This document shows, one piece after another, positions 6,324-41,926 of a stretch of DNA of 64,000 bases (positions are counted from its first letter, which is position 1; each line of letters begins with the position of its first letter). The DNA is from Candidatus Tectomicrobia bacterium. Lineage in GTDB: Bacteria; UBA8248. The translations under genes were made by a program, and so were the position numbers. The notes under the pieces were generated by a model. That model was not told the origin of the DNA. It was given only the letters and a program-made list of their open reading frames with translations, and searched no databases. The stretch spans positions 62,001-126,000 of the forward strand of contig JACPUR010000035.1 in NCBI GenBank assembly GCA_016192135.1, given 5' to 3'.

Positions 6324-6881
6324 CTACCCCGTGATCCCCTCCAGGGAGATGCTCTTGCCGTTCAGCTCGACCGTGCTGGTCAAGGGCACGGCGGTCCGCA
6401 CCATCTTCTCGGCGTAGCAGCCCTGCTTGGCGAGCCGGATGAGGCGCAGCACCCGGTCCTCGGGCTCGCCGGACTCCACCTTGAAGTGGGTGCGCACGGC
6501 CGTGCAGCCCGAGTCCACCGTGCCCTTGAGGACGGAGCCCCGGAGGAAGTAGTCGAACTCCACCCGGCAGCTCGCCTTGCGGAAGGGGGTCTTGGTCATG
6601 TGGGCGTACCGCCCAAGCTGGGTGAGCAGTCAGAAGCCCACCCCCATGGCCACGTAGGTGAGGGGCTGGGGGTGGCGGTCCTGGCCGCCGATGCGGGGCG
6701 GCTCGTCGCAGAAGACCTCGAAGTGGCGGTAACGGCCCACCTTGAGCTGGCCCTCCCCCTGGGTCTCGGTCTCGGCGACCATGGTGATCTCGTAGCCCTG
6801 GGGCGGGAGCTCGGGCTTGTCGATGGAGCGCTCGCCGGGGACGGCGCTCTCGTTCCAGGGATATTTCGGGCTCTCGATCAT
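6324..6881 (-). CDS. OsmC-family protein with in-frame TGA (probable selenoprotein)
   Basis: Read as one frame from ATG 6881 to the stop at 6324, this gives 185 residues with a single TGA at codon 84 (6630-6632). Both halves read as OsmC/Ohr-family sequence. Before the TGA comes HPQPLTYVAMGVGF; after it comes LLTQLGRYAHMTKTPF, then a FDYFLRGS strand and AKQGCYAEKMVRTAVPL with the second family cysteine. In OsmC proteins the first catalytic Cys lies exactly at the TGA (consensus like GGC-LT), so Sec84 is expected to form the redox pair with the later Cys. OsmC-like selenoproteins are known. A stem-loop follows at 6601-6615. GAGGAGAGGAC lies just before the ATG. Family role: thiol-dependent reduction of organic hydroperoxides or a related function. 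The alternatives are a nonsense mutation or sequence error. Confidence 0.82.
6601..6615 (-). promoter_or_regulatory. SECIS-like stem-loop of the OsmC gene
   Basis: On the minus strand, TGGGC pairs with GCCCA around the loop GGTAC. The loop begins 20 nt after the TGA at 6630-6632. Bacterial SECIS elements lie within the coding sequence just downstream of the UGA, with a G in the first two loop positions next to a U, and this hairpin fits. It also encodes residues of the protein (LGRYAH). Confidence 0.6.
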
Positions 6882-7273
6882 GCGTCCTCTCCTCGCGGAT
6901 GTGGAATGTCCTGCGGGGAGGATACCGGGCTTCCGCCGGGCTTCCAAGGCGGGCCGCCCCTCCCGCCTGCGCGGGCCGAAGCCCGCTCCCGCCTTCGCGA
7001 AGCCCGCTTCGGCGGGCGAAGGAAGGTCGGCGGGCGGAGGAAGGTCGGCGGGCGAAGGCCCGGAGGCCGCGCCATGAAAAATGGTTTGCAGTTCCCCTCC
7101 CCCTCCGGGGGAGGGCAGGGTGGGGGAGCAGCCATCCGGGCGCCCCTCCCCCCTCGGGCCCATGCGGGCCCGACCTCCCGGGGGGAGGGGGGAAGCGTCA
7201 TTGGATTTAACCGGCAGCCGTTTTCCCAAGAGGCGGGCCGCCCCTCCCGGAGGAGGGGCGGGCACGAAGAAGG
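6882..7273. other. Gap between permease 2 and the OsmC gene
   Basis: 392 nt with no supported gene. It holds an 18-bp tandem repeat (7011-7060) and two polypyrimidine/polypurine blocks at about 7093-7125 and 7141-7190. The second block has a TCGGGCCC / GGGCCCGA tip, the inverted counterpart of the element at 6080-6126. Confidence 0.6.
7011..7060. repeat. 18-bp tandem repeat, 2.7 copies
   Basis: The unit GGCGGGCGAAGGAAGGTC occurs at 7011-7028, again at 7029-7046 with one change, and partially at 7047-7060. Confidence 0.65.
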
Positions 7274-9016
7274 TCAGGCGGAGAGGGCCTCCTTGCCGGC
7301 GGCCCGGCGGAAGAGGTAGACGCACCCCAGCAGGATGAAGGTCTGGATGACCGAGAGGGTGCAGGTGAGGGCTTCGTTCTCGTACTCCTGCAGGTAGTAG
7401 ATGCCCACCGAGAGGGTCTCGGTGCCCGCGGTGTAGAGGATGAGCGACATCGGCAGCTCGCGGATGAAGATGAGGAACATGAGAATCCAGCCCGCGAAGA
7501 TTCCGGGCTTGAGGAGGGGGAGGGTGATGCGCCGCATGGTCGTCACCCAGGAGGCCCCGGCCATCCGGGAGCTCTGCTCGAGCTCCTCCGAGACGGCCAG
7601 CATGACCGAGGCCACATTGCGCTGCCCGTAGGGGAAGAAGCGCGTCACATAGCCCAGCAGGATGATCCAGATGGTCGCGTAGATGGGGGTCTTGATGTAG
7701 GTGATGAGGACCCCCACCGCGATGACGATGCCCGGGAAGCCCACGGGGATGGCGGAGAGGAAGTCCAGCAGGGCGGAGAAGCGCCCGCGCAGGCGGTGGA
7801 TCTGGAAAGAGACCACGATGCCCAGGATCATGGCCAGGGAGGCCCCGGCCAGGGAGAGGATGAGGCTGTTGAGGAGGCCGTTGGTCACGGGCTTGAAGCT
7901 GATCGGCGACCAGATGAAGAGCACCCGCTGGTAGTTCCAGAAGGAAAATTCCGACGGGATGATCTTCCCCGTCCAGATCCGGTGGAGGCTCACCACGAAG
8001 AGGGAGAGGATGGGGAGGATGACCGCGATGAAGATATAGAGGGCGTTCCAGCCGAAGGCGGCCCACTTCCAGCGGCCCAGGTCGATGAGGTTGGGCCGGA
8101 AGCCCTTGCCCGTCACGGTGGTGAACTCGCGCGGCGCGATGATGCGCCGCTGCACCCAGATGAAGGCCGCCGTGATGGCGCCGAGCGTCATGCTCATGGC
8201 CGCGCCCATCTGGTAGTTCGCCTGGTCGCCCACGGCCTTGGTGAAGATTTGGGTGGTGAGGGTTTCCCAGCCGTAGGGGGTGCCCAGCTTGAAGGGGACG
8301 CCGAACTCCCCCGCGCTCGTCACGAAGACGATGATCGCGCCCGAGAGGATGCCCGGCAGGGCGAGCGGGAGGGTGACGGTGAGGGTGGTCCGCAGGAGGC
8401 CCGCGCCCGTGGTTCGCGCGCTGTCCTCGAGGGAGGGGTCCATCCGCCGCAGCGAGCCCACCACGAAGAGGTAGACCAGCGGCGTGAAGAAAATCCCCGT
8501 CACCCACATGATGCCGAAGAGGTTGTTGACGTTGAAGATGGCCCCCTGGATGCCGAGGAGGTCGCTGGCCAGGAAGTTGAGGAGGCCGATCTGGGAAGAG
8601 GCCAGGTTGTGCCATGCGATGGCGCCCACGAAGGGGCTGAGGAAGAAGGGGATGAGGTTCAGCGCCTCCAGCCTTTCGCGCCAGGGGCAGTTCGTGCGGG
8701 CGTTGATCCAGGCGAGGGCGACTCCCATGAAGGTGGCCAGCAGGGTGGTGCCGGAGCTGATGACGAGGGTGTTGAGGAAGGCCCTCCGGATGACGTGGCC
8801 CCGGACCATCTCGCGGTAGTTGCCGAAGCCCCATTCGGTGTCGAAGCCGAGCTCATCCGGCACCAGGAAGCTGTTCACGACGAGGGAGGCGAGGGGAAGC
8901 ACCACCATGGCCGTCACGAAAAGGCTGACCAGGGAGGTGATCGCCGTTTCGGGGCGGAGGAGGCCCCTCCACCTGCGGAGCTGGAGGGCTGTCCCCCGGG
9001 CGCTCAAGATGGCCAT
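7274..9016 (-). CDS. Iron/thiamine-type ABC transporter fused permease (copy 2)
   Basis: A 580-residue inner-membrane protein with two binding-protein-dependent transport domains in one chain, as in FbpB/ThiP-type permeases. Hydrophobic segments begin near residue 26 (ITSLVSLFVTAMVVLPLASL) and continue in two blocks of about six. Each half has an EAA-type cytoplasmic loop, LEDSARTTGAGLLRTTLTVTLPL in the first half and LEQSSRMAGASWVTTMRRITLPL in the second. It lies 75 nt after the solute-binding gene at 9092-10201 and closely resembles the equally long permease at 10432-12174, so the pair is a tandem duplication. No ATPase gene is adjacent. Substrate assignment (ferric iron or a similar small ligand) rests on family resemblance only. 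Confidence 0.88.
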   Translation of the reverse strand: MAILSARGTALQLRRWRGLLRPETAITSLVSLFVTAMVVLPLASLVVNSFLVPDELGFDTEWGFGNYREMVRGHVIRRAFLNTLVISSGTTLLATFMGVALAWINARTNCPWRERLEALNLIPFFLSPFVGAIAWHNLASSQIGLLNFLASDLLGIQGAIFNVNNLFGIMWVTGIFFTPLVYLFVVGSLRRMDPSLEDSARTTGAGLLRTTLTVTLPLALPGILSGAIIVFVTSAGEFGVPFKLGTPYGWETLTTQIFTKAVGDQANYQMGAAMSMTLGAITAAFIWVQRRIIAPREFTTVTGKGFRPNLIDLGRWKWAAFGWNALYIFIAVILPILSLFVVSLHRIWTGKIIPSEFSFWNYQRVLFIWSPISFKPVTNGLLNSLILSLAGASLAMILGIVVSFQIHRLRGRFSALLDFLSAIPVGFPGIVIAVGVLITYIKTPIYATIWIILLGYVTRFFPYGQRNVASVMLAVSEELEQSSRMAGASWVTTMRRITLPLLKPGIFAGWILMFLIFIRELPMSLILYTAGTETLSVGIYYLQEYENEALTCTLSVIQTFILLGCVYLFRRAAGKEALSA

Positions 9017-9091
9017 CGGTTCCCTTTGGAGAGGAGTCCCGCCGGGGGGGTAATTCCCCCCGGCGGGATGTTCACGCGCCGAGACGATCCC

Positions 9092-10201
9092 CTACCGGAA
9101 GACCTCTTGCCATTCCTCCTGCATCTTCTTGAATTTCTTCGCGGCGCCGAGCTGGTCCTTGATGGGCAGGAGCTTCACCTTGTTGAAATCGATCATGTGC
9201 GCCTTCACGGACGCCGGGGGCTCGTAGTCCTTGAGCATGGTGTAGTAGCTGACCTCCTCCTCGGCCACGATGTCCGCCGCCTCCTTGGTCAGGAGGAAGT
9301 CCAGCCACAGCTTGGCCGCGTTGGGGTGCTTCGCCCCCTTGATGACGCCGGCCTGCTGGCCGAAGAGCACCATGCCCTCCTTATACGAACCCCACTTCAG
9401 GCTCTTGGCCAGATCGGGCTTCTCCTTGATCTTCTGGAGGGCCCGCCCCGAGAGGTTCCACATGTCCACGGCCCGCTCGCAGTTGACGACCTGCTGCATC
9501 TTCGCCTCGGTGCGGAAGGCCACGAGAGGGTCGAGGGCCTTGAGCTTCTTCCACATGGCCTTGACGTCGTAGCCGTTCTCCATCAACCCGATGGTCGTCA
9601 GCGAATAGGACTGGCTCTTCGTGACGTCGCTCGCCAGCACCTTCCCCTTCAGCTTGGGGTTGTCGATGATGTCGGCGTAGGAGGTGATGTTCACGCCCTC
9701 CATGCCAGGGCAGGAGACGTTCCAGACGGGCTGGAAGGTATAGGAGTAGGGGGCGATGAAGCGGGGGTAGTCCACGAAGATCCCCGCCTTCTTCCAGTTC
9801 TCCTCGTGCTTCTTCCAGTGGCCGCTGTCCAGGGGGAGAAAGGCGCCCTGCTTGGCGGCGCCGGCGAAGAAGCCGGGCGAGGCGACCGAGACGACGTCGA
9901 AGCTGTACTTGCCCGCCTTGATCTCCTGGCGCGCCATGGACACGGTGGGGCCCGTTCCCTTGAGGATGTGGTTCACCTTGAAGCCGCTGCCCAGGTTGTA
10001 ATGCTTGAGGAACGCGGGCCCTAGGCGCCGCATCGTGTCGTCCTTCCAGGAGGTTTCCAGGAAGATGACCTGTCCTTCCTTCTTGGCGAGCGGGATGAGC
10101 TTCTTCTCCTGGGGCGTGATTTCGGTGGCGCCCCACGCGGGCGCGGCGAGCGCCAGCAGCAGGACGGCGGAATGGATGGAACGATGCGCGGTCCACTTCA
10201 T
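9092..10201 (-). CDS. Periplasmic solute-binding protein, Fe(III)/thiamine ABC type (copy 2)
   Basis: A 369-residue secreted binding protein. The N-terminus MKWTAHRSIHSAVLLLALAA is a classical Sec signal peptide with likely cleavage after AWG. The mature protein starts ATEITPQEKKLIPLAKKEG, typical of the family-1/SBP_bac_6-like iron-binding group. It pairs with the downstream permease at 7274-9016. Its near-twin is 12260-13372, and long stretches match (KGTGPTVS, ARQEI, GGVIKGAKHPNA-type blocks). A GAGGAGGGTG site precedes the ATG. The expected role is capture of ferric iron or another small ligand in the periplasm. Confidence 0.88.
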   Translation of the reverse strand: MKWTAHRSIHSAVLLLALAAPAWGATEITPQEKKLIPLAKKEGQVIFLETSWKDDTMRRLGPAFLKHYNLGSGFKVNHILKGTGPTVSMARQEIKAGKYSFDVVSVASPGFFAGAAKQGAFLPLDSGHWKKHEENWKKAGIFVDYPRFIAPYSYTFQPVWNVSCPGMEGVNITSYADIIDNPKLKGKVLASDVTKSQSYSLTTIGLMENGYDVKAMWKKLKALDPLVAFRTEAKMQQVVNCERAVDMWNLSGRALQKIKEKPDLAKSLKWGSYKEGMVLFGQQAGVIKGAKHPNAAKLWLDFLLTKEAADIVAEEEVSYYTMLKDYEPPASVKAHMIDFNKVKLLPIKDQLGAAKKFKKMQEEWQEVFR

Positions 10202-10431
10202 GCGTGCACCCTCCTCTCCCCAGCGCGGGAGACATCCGCCCGGAAACCCGATGCCCGCTCCTTTCCCCGGCGGAGAGAAAAAAGCGGCTCAATGAAAGGA
10301 CGAAGAAATTATGACCTTTTCTTCCGAAATTTGGAAGATTCGAAGGCCCCCGGAAGGAGTTTTTTGTTATGTCAAGTAAAAACAAGGTGTTATTGAATTC
10401 GCGAGGAGCCGGAAAAGGCCGGGCGGCCCCC
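10202..10431. other. Gap between the two transporter copies
   Basis: 230 nt, A+T-richer than its surroundings around 10290-10400 (for example a TTGACA on the minus strand at 10371-10376 and CATAAT near 10310). It probably carries the promoter of the second solute-binding gene, but no -35/-10 pair with good spacing is clear. The string GGCC-gccc-GGCC-TTTT on the minus strand, just after the permease stop, could be a weak terminator. Confidence 0.35.
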
Positions 10432-12174
10432 TCAGGCGACCAGAGCCTCGCGGCCCGCGGCCTTGCGGAAGAGAAAGACGCAGCCCAGCAGGATGAGGGT
10501 TTGGACGACGGAGAGGGCGCAGGTGACGGACTCGTTCTTGTACTCCTGGAGGTAGTAGATGCCCACCGAGAGGGTTTCGGTCCCTGTCGTGTGGAGGATG
10601 AGCGACATCGGCAGTTCGCGGATGAAGATGAGGAACAGGAGCAGCCATCCCGCGAAAATGCCCGGCTTGAGCAACGGGACGGTGATGCGCCTGAGCGTCG
10701 TGGTCCAGGAGGCGCCGGAGAGGCGGGAGCTCTGCTCGAGCTCCTCCGAGACGGCCAGCATGACGGAAGCCACGTTGCGCTGTCCATAGGGGAAAAAGCG
10801 CGTCACGTAGCCCAGCAGGAGTATCCACATGGTCGCGTAGATGGGCGTCTTGATGTAGGTGAGGAGCACCCCCACCGCGATCACGATGCCCGGGAAGCCC
10901 ACGGGCAGGGCGCACAGGAAGTCCAGCGCGCCGGCAAAGCGGCCGCGCCGGCGGTGGATCTGGAACGAGATCACGATCGAGAGGACCATCCCGATCGTGG
11001 CGCCGCTGATCGCGAGGATGAAGCTGTTGATGATCCCGTTCGTCGCGGGCTTGATGCTTTCCGGCGACCAGAAGAAGAGGACCAGCTCGTAATTGATGGA
11101 GGAGAAATCGGCCGGAATGATCTTGCCTATCCAGACGCGGTGGAGGCTCACCAGGAAGATGCTGATGACGGGCAGGACCACCGCGATGAGGATGTAGAGG
11201 ACGTTCAGGCCGAAGGCGAGCCATTTCCAGCGGCCCAGGTCCACGACGGTGGGACGGAAGCCCTTTCCCGTCACGGTGGTGAACTCCCGCGGCGCGATGA
11301 TCCGCCGCTGCACCCAGATGAAGGCCGCCGTGACGACCCCCAGCGTCATGCTCATGGCCGCGCCCATGTAGCTGTTCGCCTGGTCGCCCACGGCCTTGGT
11401 GAAGATTTGGGTGGTGAGGGTTTCCCAGCCGTAGGGGGCCCCGAGCTTGAAGGGCACCCCGAACTCCCCCGCGCTCGTGACGAAGACGATGATCGTACCC
11501 GAGAGGATGCCCGGCAAGGCGAGCGGGAGCGTCACGGTGAGGGTGGTGCGCATGAGGCCCGCCCCCGCCGTGCGGGCGCTGTCCTCGAGGGAGGGGTCCA
11601 TCCGCCGCAGCGAGCCCACCACGAAGAGGTAGACCAGGGGGGTGAAGAATATTCCCGTCACCCACATGATGCCGAAGAGGTTGTTCACGTTGAAGAGAGC
11701 CCCCTCGACCCCCAGGAAATCCCACGCCAAATGGTTGAGCATGCCGACCTGAGGGGAGGCCAGGTTGTGCCAGGCGATCGCCCCCACGAAGGGACTCAGG
11801 AAGAAAGGGATGAGGTTCAGGGGCTCGAGCTTTTCGCGCCAGGGGCAGTTCGTGCGGGCGTTGACCCAGGCGAGGGAGACGCCCAGGAAGGTGGCCAGCA
11901 TGGTCGAGCCGGTGCTGACGAAGAGGGTGTTGAGCAGGGCCTTGCGGATGACGTGGCCCTGGAACATTTCCCGGTAGTTGGCCAGGCCCCACTCTGTCCC
12001 GAAGCCCAGGTCGTCGAGCACCAGGAAGCTGCTCACCACGAGGGCGAGGAGCGGGAGCAGCACCATGGCCGCGACGAGCAGGCTGACGGCCGTGTTCGTC
12101 ACCGTCTCCACGGTGAGGAGGTTCCGCCATCCCTGCAACCGTGCGGCGGCTTGCGTCGTGCTCAGGGTGGTCAT
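10432..12174 (-). CDS. Iron/thiamine-type ABC transporter fused permease (copy 1)
   Basis: Starting at ATG 12174 the product is 580 residues, the same length as its paralogue at 7274-9016, which supports this start over a 23-codon upstream extension. Two transport domains are fused, with EAA-type loops LEDSARTAGAGLMRTTLTV and LEQSSRLSGASWTTTLRRITV. It lies 85 nt downstream of the solute-binding gene 12260-13372. It is an inner-membrane channel, and the energising ATPase must come from elsewhere, possibly from the MalK-like gene at 41930-42994 or another locus. Confidence 0.88.
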   Translation of the reverse strand: MTTLSTTQAAARLQGWRNLLTVETVTNTAVSLLVAAMVLLPLLALVVSSFLVLDDLGFGTEWGLANYREMFQGHVIRKALLNTLFVSTGSTMLATFLGVSLAWVNARTNCPWREKLEPLNLIPFFLSPFVGAIAWHNLASPQVGMLNHLAWDFLGVEGALFNVNNLFGIMWVTGIFFTPLVYLFVVGSLRRMDPSLEDSARTAGAGLMRTTLTVTLPLALPGILSGTIIVFVTSAGEFGVPFKLGAPYGWETLTTQIFTKAVGDQANSYMGAAMSMTLGVVTAAFIWVQRRIIAPREFTTVTGKGFRPTVVDLGRWKWLAFGLNVLYILIAVVLPVISIFLVSLHRVWIGKIIPADFSSINYELVLFFWSPESIKPATNGIINSFILAISGATIGMVLSIVISFQIHRRRGRFAGALDFLCALPVGFPGIVIAVGVLLTYIKTPIYATMWILLLGYVTRFFPYGQRNVASVMLAVSEELEQSSRLSGASWTTTLRRITVPLLKPGIFAGWLLLFLIFIRELPMSLILHTTGTETLSVGIYYLQEYKNESVTCALSVVQTLILLGCVFLFRKAAGREALVA

Positions 12175-12259
12175 GGGCACCTGCCGCCAAGGGCTCCCCG
12201 GGGCGAGGCGGCCCGGAAGGCCGCCTCGCCCCGGGGTCGCCACGAGAGGCTTTCTCTTC

Positions 12260-13372
12260 CTACTGGAATATCTTCTGCCACTCCGCGTGCATCGCCTTGA
12301 ACTTCTTCGCCGCCGCGGTTTGATCCTTGATGGGGAGTATCTTCACCTTGTCGAAGTCGATCATGTACTTGCGGACGGACTCGGGCGGCTTGTAACCCTT
12401 GAGCATGGTGTAGAAGCTCACCTCCCCCTCGGCCACGATGTCCGCCGCCTCCTTGGTCAGGAGGAAGTCGAGGAACAGCTTGCCCGCGTTCGGGTGCTTC
12501 GCCCCCTTGATGACGCCGGCTTGCTGGCCGAAAAGGACCATACCCTCCTTATAAGTCCCCCATTTCAGCCCTTTCTCCAGTTCGGGCTTCTCGCGGATCT
12601 TCTGGAGGGCGCGGCCCGAGAGGTTCCACATGTCCACCGGACGCTCGCAGTTGATGACGAACTGCATCTTCGCCTCGGTGCGGAAGGCCACGAGAGGATC
12701 GAGCGCCTTGAGCTTGGGCCACATCCCCTTGATATCGATGCCGTTCTCGATCAGCCCGATGGTCGTGAGCGAGTACGAGGTGCTCTTCGTGACGTCGCTG
12801 ACGAGGACCTTGCCCTTGAGCTTGGGGTTGTCCGTGATATCGGCATAGGAGGTGATGTTCACCCCCTCCATGCCGGGGCAGGCCGTGTTCCAGACGGGCT
12901 GAAAGGTGTAGGAGTAGGGGGAGACGAAATGGGGATAGTCATAGTATATCCCCGCTTTCTTCCAATTCTCTTCATGGTTCTTCACGTGGCCGCTGTCCAG
13001 GGGCAGGAAGGCCCCCGCCTTGGCGGCGCCGATGAAGAAGCCCGCCGAGGCGACCGAGATGACATCGAAGGTGAACTTGCCCGCCCGGATCTCCTGGCGC
13101 GCCTGGGAGACGGTGGGGCCCGTCCCCTTCTGGATGGGAACTACCTTGAAGCCGCTTCCCAGCCCGTAGCGCTTGACGAAGGACTCCCCCAGCTTCTGCA
13201 TCGTGTCGTTGTTGAAAGATGTCTGGAGGTAAACGACGGAGCCTTCCTTCTTGGCGAGCGGAATGAGCTTCTTCTCCTGCGGCGTGATCTCGGTGGCGCC
13301 GAAGGCGGGCGAGAGAGCCAGCAGCGCGCCCAGCGGCAGGGAAAGGGAGAGGGCTCTCATTTTCCGGTTCAT
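12260..13372 (-). CDS. Periplasmic solute-binding protein, Fe(III)/thiamine ABC type (copy 1)
   Basis: A 370-residue secreted protein when started at ATG 13372, which has GGAG upstream; longer reading adds 51 codons without a signal peptide. The signal sequence MNRKMRALSLSLPLGALLALSPAFG is followed by ATEITPQEKKLIPLAKKEG, identical to the start of the mature copy 2. It is the first gene of the tandem set SBP-permease-SBP-permease. Family members bind ferric iron, thiamine or small organic ligands; the ligand is not readable from the sequence. Confidence 0.88.
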   Translation of the reverse strand: MNRKMRALSLSLPLGALLALSPAFGATEITPQEKKLIPLAKKEGSVVYLQTSFNNDTMQKLGESFVKRYGLGSGFKVVPIQKGTGPTVSQARQEIRAGKFTFDVISVASAGFFIGAAKAGAFLPLDSGHVKNHEENWKKAGIYYDYPHFVSPYSYTFQPVWNTACPGMEGVNITSYADITDNPKLKGKVLVSDVTKSTSYSLTTIGLIENGIDIKGMWPKLKALDPLVAFRTEAKMQFVINCERPVDMWNLSGRALQKIREKPELEKGLKWGTYKEGMVLFGQQAGVIKGAKHPNAGKLFLDFLLTKEAADIVAEGEVSFYTMLKGYKPPESVRKYMIDFDKVKILPIKDQTAAAKKFKAMHAEWQKIFQ

Positions 13373-13530
13373 GTCGTCGCTCCTTCTCCGGCAGTCGGTG
13401 GGAAATTCTTCTTCGCCCATTGGTGCAAAGCACCACCGGTGGACGGCGGCTTCGGCCCATCTGGGGCGGCGGACGCTCTGTATGAACGATGAGTTCAATA
13501 TGCACGGGAAGGTCTTTGCCCGCAAACGGC

Positions 13531-40126: not shown

Positions 40127-41926
40127 ATGGAGGCGATATCCGCCCCCGCGGGATGGCTGGCGGACCGGGCGGCCCAATGGAGAAACGAGCCCGGCAAGTT
40201 CGCCGCGATGGCGCTGACGGCCTCGTTCCTGGCCGCCCTCATCGCCTACCCCTTCCTGACCCTTTTCGTCATGAGCCTTCAGCACCCGGAGACGGGCGCC
40301 TGGACGATCTCAAGCTACGTCCGCATCTTCACCGAGGAGAGCTTCCGGGACGCGTTCATCCGCTCGATCTGGCTCAGCCTCATCGTCACCTTCTTCTCGC
40401 TCATTCTCGGCATCCCCATGGCCTTCGGGGTCTCGCGCACGCGGATGCCCTTCCGGGAGCTCGTGCGAAGCCTCACCGGCATCGCCTTCATCATCCCGAG
40501 CTTCATCGGGGCGGTGGGCTGGATCTTCCTGCTCGGGGAGAACCAGGGGGACATCAACCGCTTGGTGCGCTGGATCGTCAACCCCTTCCTGGCGGAGCCG
40601 ATCGAGAGCGGCCCCTTCACGGTCTTCTCCTTCTGGGGTTTGGCCTTCGTCCTGGTCCTGCATTTTTTCCCGTTCGTCTTCTATTCCGTGAGCGCCTCGC
40701 TCGACAACATGGACCCCTCCTACGAGGAGGCGGGGAGCATGGTGGGGGCGGGGAGGCTCCTGACCGTGCTGCGGATCACCCTCCCCATGGCGGCCCCCGC
40801 CATCGTGTCGGGCGCCATCATGGTCTTCCTGGAGACGCTGGCGGCGTTCGGCGCCCCCCAGGTCATCGGCGTTCCCGCCCGGTTTCACGTTCTGACGACG
40901 CGCATCTACAACCTGTTCGAGCCGCCGCCGAACTTCGCCATGGCGACGGCGCTGGCCTCTCCGCTCATCGTCATCACGGCGGGGGCGCTGTGGCTTCAGC
41001 GGCGCATCCTGTCCCGGCGGCAGTACGTGACGGTGGGCGGCAAGGCCACCGCCCCCGCGCCCATGGACATCGGGCGGTGGCGCTACGTCCTGAGCGGGTT
41101 CTCCATGCTCGTGGTGTTCGTCTCGGTGGGGGCGCCGATGTACGCCATCTTCGCCACCTCCGTGACGGAGGTGTGGGGGCGGCCGCTCTTCACCGGGCTC
41201 TTCCCGCCGGCCGCCGGCGGCTTCTCCTTGACGCACTACGAGCAGCTCTTCGACCCCGCCCTGGCCAACTGCGATCTTCCCGGCGGCTACATCGTCACCG
41301 AGGCCATATGCGCCGTCTACAACAGCATGTGGCTCTCGGCGGTGGCGGCCACCCTCATCCTCCTGCTGGCGGTGGTGTCGGCCTACATCGTCGAGCGCTC
41401 GGGAATCGATGGGAGGGGCGCGCTGACCGGCCTCATCATGATGACCTTCGCCTTCCCCTCCGTGGCGCTGGCCGTGGGGCTCTACGTGGGCTACCTGAGG
41501 CTCGAGTGGCTGCCCGTCTTCGGCACCATGATGATGTTCATCCTGGCCTACATCACGCGCTACATCGCCTTCGCCTTCATTTTCGTGCGGAATACGATGA
41601 AGCAGGTGGGCCCCGAGATGGAGGAGGCGGGCCGCATGGTGGGGGCGGGGTGGACGCGGACCACCTGGAGCATCTCGGTGCCCCTGCTCAAGAGCGGCCT
41701 GTGGATCGGCTGGACGCTCGTCTTCGCCGTCCTGCTCCGTGAGCTGCCCCTCACCATCATGCTGAACGTCCAGGGGGCGCAGACCATGGCGGTGCGCATC
41801 CTGCTTTTCATCGAGGACGGCCTCCTCGAGCGCGCCGCCGCGATGTGCATCATCATCATCGTGGCCTCGGTCGGGGCGACGTGGCTCGTCCGGAGGTTCG
41901 CCGGGAAATCCGTAATGGAGGTGTGA
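40127..41926 (+). CDS. ABC transporter fused permease (FbpB-type)
   Basis: A 599-residue inner-membrane protein with two transport domains. EAA-type loops are YEEAGSMVGAGRLLTVLRITLPM in the first half and MEEAGRMVGAGWTRTTWSISVPLL in the second. About twelve hydrophobic segments are seen, starting with KFAAMALTASFLAALIAYPFL. A GGACGGAGGCTGC site precedes ATG 40127. The ATPase gene begins 3 nt after its stop, so the complex is co-expressed. Confidence 0.9.
   Translation: MEAISAPAGWLADRAAQWRNEPGKFAAMALTASFLAALIAYPFLTLFVMSLQHPETGAWTISSYVRIFTEESFRDAFIRSIWLSLIVTFFSLILGIPMAFGVSRTRMPFRELVRSLTGIAFIIPSFIGAVGWIFLLGENQGDINRLVRWIVNPFLAEPIESGPFTVFSFWGLAFVLVLHFFPFVFYSVSASLDNMDPSYEEAGSMVGAGRLLTVLRITLPMAAPAIVSGAIMVFLETLAAFGAPQVIGVPARFHVLTTRIYNLFEPPPNFAMATALASPLIVITAGALWLQRRILSRRQYVTVGGKATAPAPMDIGRWRYVLSGFSMLVVFVSVGAPMYAIFATSVTEVWGRPLFTGLFPPAAGGFSLTHYEQLFDPALANCDLPGGYIVTEAICAVYNSMWLSAVAATLILLLAVVSAYIVERSGIDGRGALTGLIMMTFAFPSVALAVGLYVGYLRLEWLPVFGTMMMFILAYITRYIAFAFIFVRNTMKQVGPEMEEAGRMVGAGWTRTTWSISVPLLKSGLWIGWTLVFAVLLRELPLTIMLNVQGAQTMAVRILLFIEDGLLERAAAMCIIIIVASVGATWLVRRFAGKSVMEV

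Follow-up and report, generated by a model that had tools for sequence, protein, structure and literature searches.

The question raised by this locus is whether a gene of the OsmC family that is interrupted by a TGA at its redox cysteine encodes a selenoprotein. The locus is found within the window, which is the whole 64-kb stretch of DNA that was analyzed and which belongs to a genome of 3.92 Mb (41 contigs, 96.8% complete). The initial annotation had described a single frame that runs from an ATG at 6881 through one TGA at codon 84 to a stop at 6324, and the same frame was obtained when the sequence was re-read. The features of the gene are as follows.

6881-6324, minus strand: putative Sec-containing OsmC-like gene of 185 residues, with Sec at position 84 and TAG as the stop codon.
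6632-6630, minus strand: in-frame TGA at codon 84, where OsmC has its first redox Cys.
6417..6419, minus strand: TGC codon 155, which encodes the second (presumed resolving) Cys and does not vary across the alignment of 50 homologues.
6885..6894, minus strand: GAGGAGAGGA, a run resembling a ribosome-binding site 5' of the ATG, recognized by eye.
6599-6324, minus strand: spurious ATG open reading frame of 91 residues 3' of the TGA, which an automatic gene caller would be expected to report.

The residues flanking the TGA are YVAMGVGF-U-LLTQL, and the motif of the second cysteine, AKQGC(155)YAEK, was found intact as previously claimed. Third-position GC is 0.98 on both sides of the TGA, which is the signature of a real gene. 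The ATG was accepted as the start because it is preceded by the GAGGAGAGGA run and because the distance from the ATG to the Sec codon is nearly equal in homologues. It had been anticipated that an automatic caller would split the gene. Both fragments exist, namely the frame that ends at the TGA and the 91-residue frame at 6599-6324, and the annotation is corrected here to one Sec-OsmC gene that automatic callers would break into two.

The gene is solitary. On its upstream side an ABC permease gene ends at a distance of 393 bases, and on its downstream side a RidA-family gene lies approximately 500 bases away. An ABC transporter pair (permease and substrate-binding protein) is present in two tandem, apparently duplicated copies at 7274-13525 of the minus strand, and the same arrangement precedes the Sec-OsmC orthologue of the relative L073. 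In the relative from the same genus, the orthologue likewise comes after ABC transporter genes. When the gene neighborhoods of distant homologues were compared, no conserved partner gene that would name a substrate was detected. A scan of the 64-kb window for other genes read through TGA provided none that was convincing among the top-ranked candidates. The candidate at 41924, which joins two genes, is explained by the normal stop of a permease gene and the start of an ABC-ATPase gene after it.

The OsmC-family assignment of the initial annotation was borne out by two profile models. The NCBIfam model NF041052 (OsmC_like_Se) gave 168.4 bits against a cut-off of 95 over residues 40-175, a stretch that spans the Sec position, and the Pfam OsmC model gave 44.3 against a cut-off of 27.5. 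In the alignment of 50 sequences, G82, F83, U84, L85, L86, T87, Q88, R91, and C155 are invariant. The product is predicted to have the OsmC fold. In the AlphaFold2 model (pLDDT of 94) the protein is a single domain in which helix 73-96 contains U84, and C155 falls at the junction of helices 141-154 and 156-164. The top 32 solved entries that were obtained in a structure search with this model are all OsmC/Ohr or OsmC-like proteins (Z of 10.8-14.3).

These data bear on the reading in which translation truly terminates at the TGA and a second, separate product is initiated at the ATG at 6599. A frame of 91 residues does begin with an ATG approximately 30 bases downstream of the TGA, but conservation is continuous past the TGA, and the invariant ULLTQ segment and Arg91 precede this ATG. 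The model also folds as one domain, with U84 within a helix. Two products are therefore very improbable.

The genes for selenocysteine synthesis and insertion, which had been proposed as a check, were sought in the same genome. SelA (540 bits) and SelB (389 bits) are encoded close together on contig C15, and a tRNA-Sec with the anticodon TCA (74.8 bits) is encoded on contig C28. The gene selD was sought in three ways in this 96.8%-complete assembly and was not found. One SelD match on contig C13 was identified by eye as ThiL, adjoining ThiE. SelD was found in 13 of the 16 family genomes searched, including both relatives of the same genus, and its gene carries an in-frame TGA of its own. Of the 18 SelD matches over the cut-off (L074-L091), which come from this family and several further lineages, 17 are themselves read through a TGA. 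Two genes that neighbor selD in the sister genomes have only 36-40% matches in the genome of the window. Since these neighbors have no close orthologue here, the whole block appears to be missing, which fits either a gap in the assembly or loss of the block. The look-up of the machinery was thus positive for selA, selB, and tRNA-Sec(UCA), and selD was the one component not found in the assembly.

The same machinery argues against the possibility that UGA is read as another amino acid, through a reassigned code or by near-cognate read-through, for example as Trp. The frame is open through the TGA, as such decoding would also require. However, tRNA-Sec, SelA, and SelB are present in the genome, and the residue aligned with this position in relatives is Cys and never Trp. 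In addition, 28 of the 59 long frames of the window with coding-like third-position GC, some of them shadow frames, end at TGA. Insertion of an amino acid other than Sec is accordingly a highly unlikely explanation.

The TGA was examined across homologues by an alignment of the column in question. It is found at the position of codon 84 in each of the 80 distinct close homologues that were read, which were drawn from records of Tectomicrobia, Nitrospinota, Betaproteobacteria, and SAR202/Dehalococcoidia. Distant OsmC proteins have TGC in the Sec column (7/7), and Cys is again present in this column in the nearest Cys forms, from five other genomes. The TGA therefore occupies the position of the first catalytic Cys, as had been claimed. 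In a survey of 386 genomes, one TGA is present in all 75 matches above 100 bits, and none is present in the five matches at 92-95 bits. As far as it has been sampled, and judged by its codons, the NF041052-type branch of OsmC is Sec-only.

Three Sec-OsmC paralogues, each with one TGA, are encoded in the genome of the window, the other two at 59 and 51% identity to the gene described here. Several further TGA-bearing OsmC genes are present in each of the two relatives from the same genus, and at least 10 Sec-OsmC paralogues are carried by the sister genome G008 (contigs C7, C20, C56, C72, C79, C88, and C120). In several genomes a tandem Sec-OsmC pair (L133, L071, L072) stands beside genes that were named by eye as aquaporin-like (MIP) and hydroxyacid dehydrogenase. 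A hydroxyacid dehydrogenase match on contig C17 that appeared to contain one TGA was rejected, as this TGA is its normal end.

A stem-loop with G and U in its loop had been reported to begin 15 nucleotides past the TGA, and it was found at this place.

6615-6601, minus strand: SECIS-like hairpin TGGGCG-GTA-CGCCCA of 6 bp with a GUA loop, with base 15 downstream of the TGA as its first base.

Folding added a sixth G-C pair to the initial TGGGC-GGTAC-GCCCA arrangement and left a GUA triloop. The full 5-bp stem is kept in 54 of 79 genes, compared with 1.2 expected from synonymous recoding, in which the amino acids were fixed and the codons were redrawn from the usage of the same genes. With codons counted after the TGA, the second base of codon 6 pairs with the third base of codon 9 in 79/79 genes, where 10,000 shuffles gave a mean of 52.9 and a maximum of 65. 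Changes of the middle base switch codon 6 between Ala, Ser or Thr, Gly, and Glu or Lys. The base at position 3 of codon 9, which is synonymous in nearly all of the genes (Ala), tracks the codon 6 base as C-G, G-C, A-T, or G-T. Parsimony on the family tree places about five changes of this pair, and the paired-trait test had 2-4 pairs. The support from covariation thus appears real but not large, as the independent events are few. The Arg at codon 7 after the TGA is encoded by CGG in 79/79 genes, compared with 28% elsewhere in the same genes. No SECIS model matched the hairpin in an Rfam search. Bacterial SECIS elements are poorly represented in Rfam, and this result was therefore not counted against the hairpin. 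On this comparative evidence, the hairpin is an RNA element under selection.

An ordinary Cys-type OsmC gene whose TGC or TGT became TGA, either by nonsense mutation or through a sequencing error, is refuted by conservation and has a negligible probability, since, even though distant OsmC proteins have Cys at the Sec place and TGA is one base from TGC, the TGA recurs in all 80 homologues, from independent assemblies, and in every paralogue of the genome, and is followed by RNA under constraint.

The selenoprotein interpretation of the initial annotation is therefore supported. Taken jointly, it is very probable that the gene encodes an NF041052-family selenoprotein in which UGA84 is translated as Sec by means of the hairpin, with an OsmC fold and most likely the activity of a selenol peroxidase/reductase. 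Actual insertion of Sec, a Sec-Cys redox cycle, and the type of substrate are what we infer from the evidence above. The UGA at codon 84 would be decoded by tRNA-Sec(UCA) carried by SelB, and the hairpin 15 nucleotides downstream would hold SelB at the UGA codon. Sec84 would be positioned in the central helix, where it may be exposed to solvent, with Cys155 as its partner. The selenol of Sec84 would attack a hydroperoxide or similar electrophile, Cys155 would resolve Sec84 with formation of a selenenylsulfide, and a dithiol reductant would recycle the selenenylsulfide.

For a member of the OsmC family, the natural reading is a selenol peroxidase/reductase with C155 as the resolving residue. 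By analogy, the enzyme would probably reduce hydroperoxides, or electrophiles related to them, in a thiol- or selenol-dependent reaction. In Ohr enzymes, a catalytic Glu is found ten residues ahead of the first Cys, as part of an Arg/Glu/Cys peroxidatic triad. Leu74 stands at what we take to be this position. The substrate may therefore differ from the classical organic hydroperoxides.

Less expected than family membership is the presence in sister genomes of two other OsmC lineages with a TGA at the same place. The second lineage (HAG-U-GLYTLLG ... CPIHNTL) has a TGA at the first Cys in 7/7 sequences from sister genomes (L117, L118, L119, L120, L122, L171, and L172) and scores 59 bits on NF041052, below the cut-off of 95. 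In most of these sequences, visual inspection showed a hairpin-like CGCTGCT-GGG-AGCAGCG downstream of the TGA. The third form (LGA-U-MMSN ... GCRIHNTL) likewise has a TGA at the first Cys and is represented by a single example (L121:643-1068, minus strand; 42.7 bits on NF041052). A tree with all Sec-OsmC forms as one clade was weakly rejected (p-AU of 0.027, with long branches). We lean slightly toward the view that the OsmC fold in this bacterial family acquired Sec on more than one occasion, each time at the same cysteine. If so, OsmC would be a repeated target of the Cys-to-Sec change, with expansion of paralogues. In Tectomicrobia- and Nitrospinota-like bacteria, one branch of OsmC very probably uses Sec, with several paralogues per genome and no close Cys form found in this analysis, and Sec-OsmC is a convenient family for asking what Sec contributes beyond Cys in OsmC enzymes.

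The OsmC-like selenoprotein family was described in 2005 from three sequences of the Sargasso Sea metagenome (Zhang et al. 2005, PMC1088965) and has been catalogued with the motif UxxT (PMC13188914, PMC9312934). The precedent cited in the initial annotation for OsmC-like selenoproteins is thus present both in the curated NF041052 model and in the published UxxT family (PMC1088965, PMC13188914). Among the papers searched, none names both Tectomicrobia and a selenoprotein. Compared by description, the Sargasso Sea protein likewise has Sec, a bacterial-type hairpin that follows the UGA, and the UxxT motif, which reads U-L-L-T in the present gene; those examples are marine, whereas the gene described here is from a Tectomicrobia-like genome. 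The fold and the two redox positions are common to the Cys-type OsmC/Ohr hydroperoxide reductases (Pfam PF02566), which have Cys where Sec is found here; identity to the solved members is approximately 10-24%. The best sequence match among solved structures is the OsmC-like protein from Jannaschia (PDB 3cje; E of 1.7e-14), in which both Cys residues align with U84 and C155, and Cys again stands at the Sec position. From NF041052, the "OsmC-related (seleno)protein", no difference was found, and the Tectomicrobia gene is a further member of this previously described Sec-OsmC family rather than a new form.
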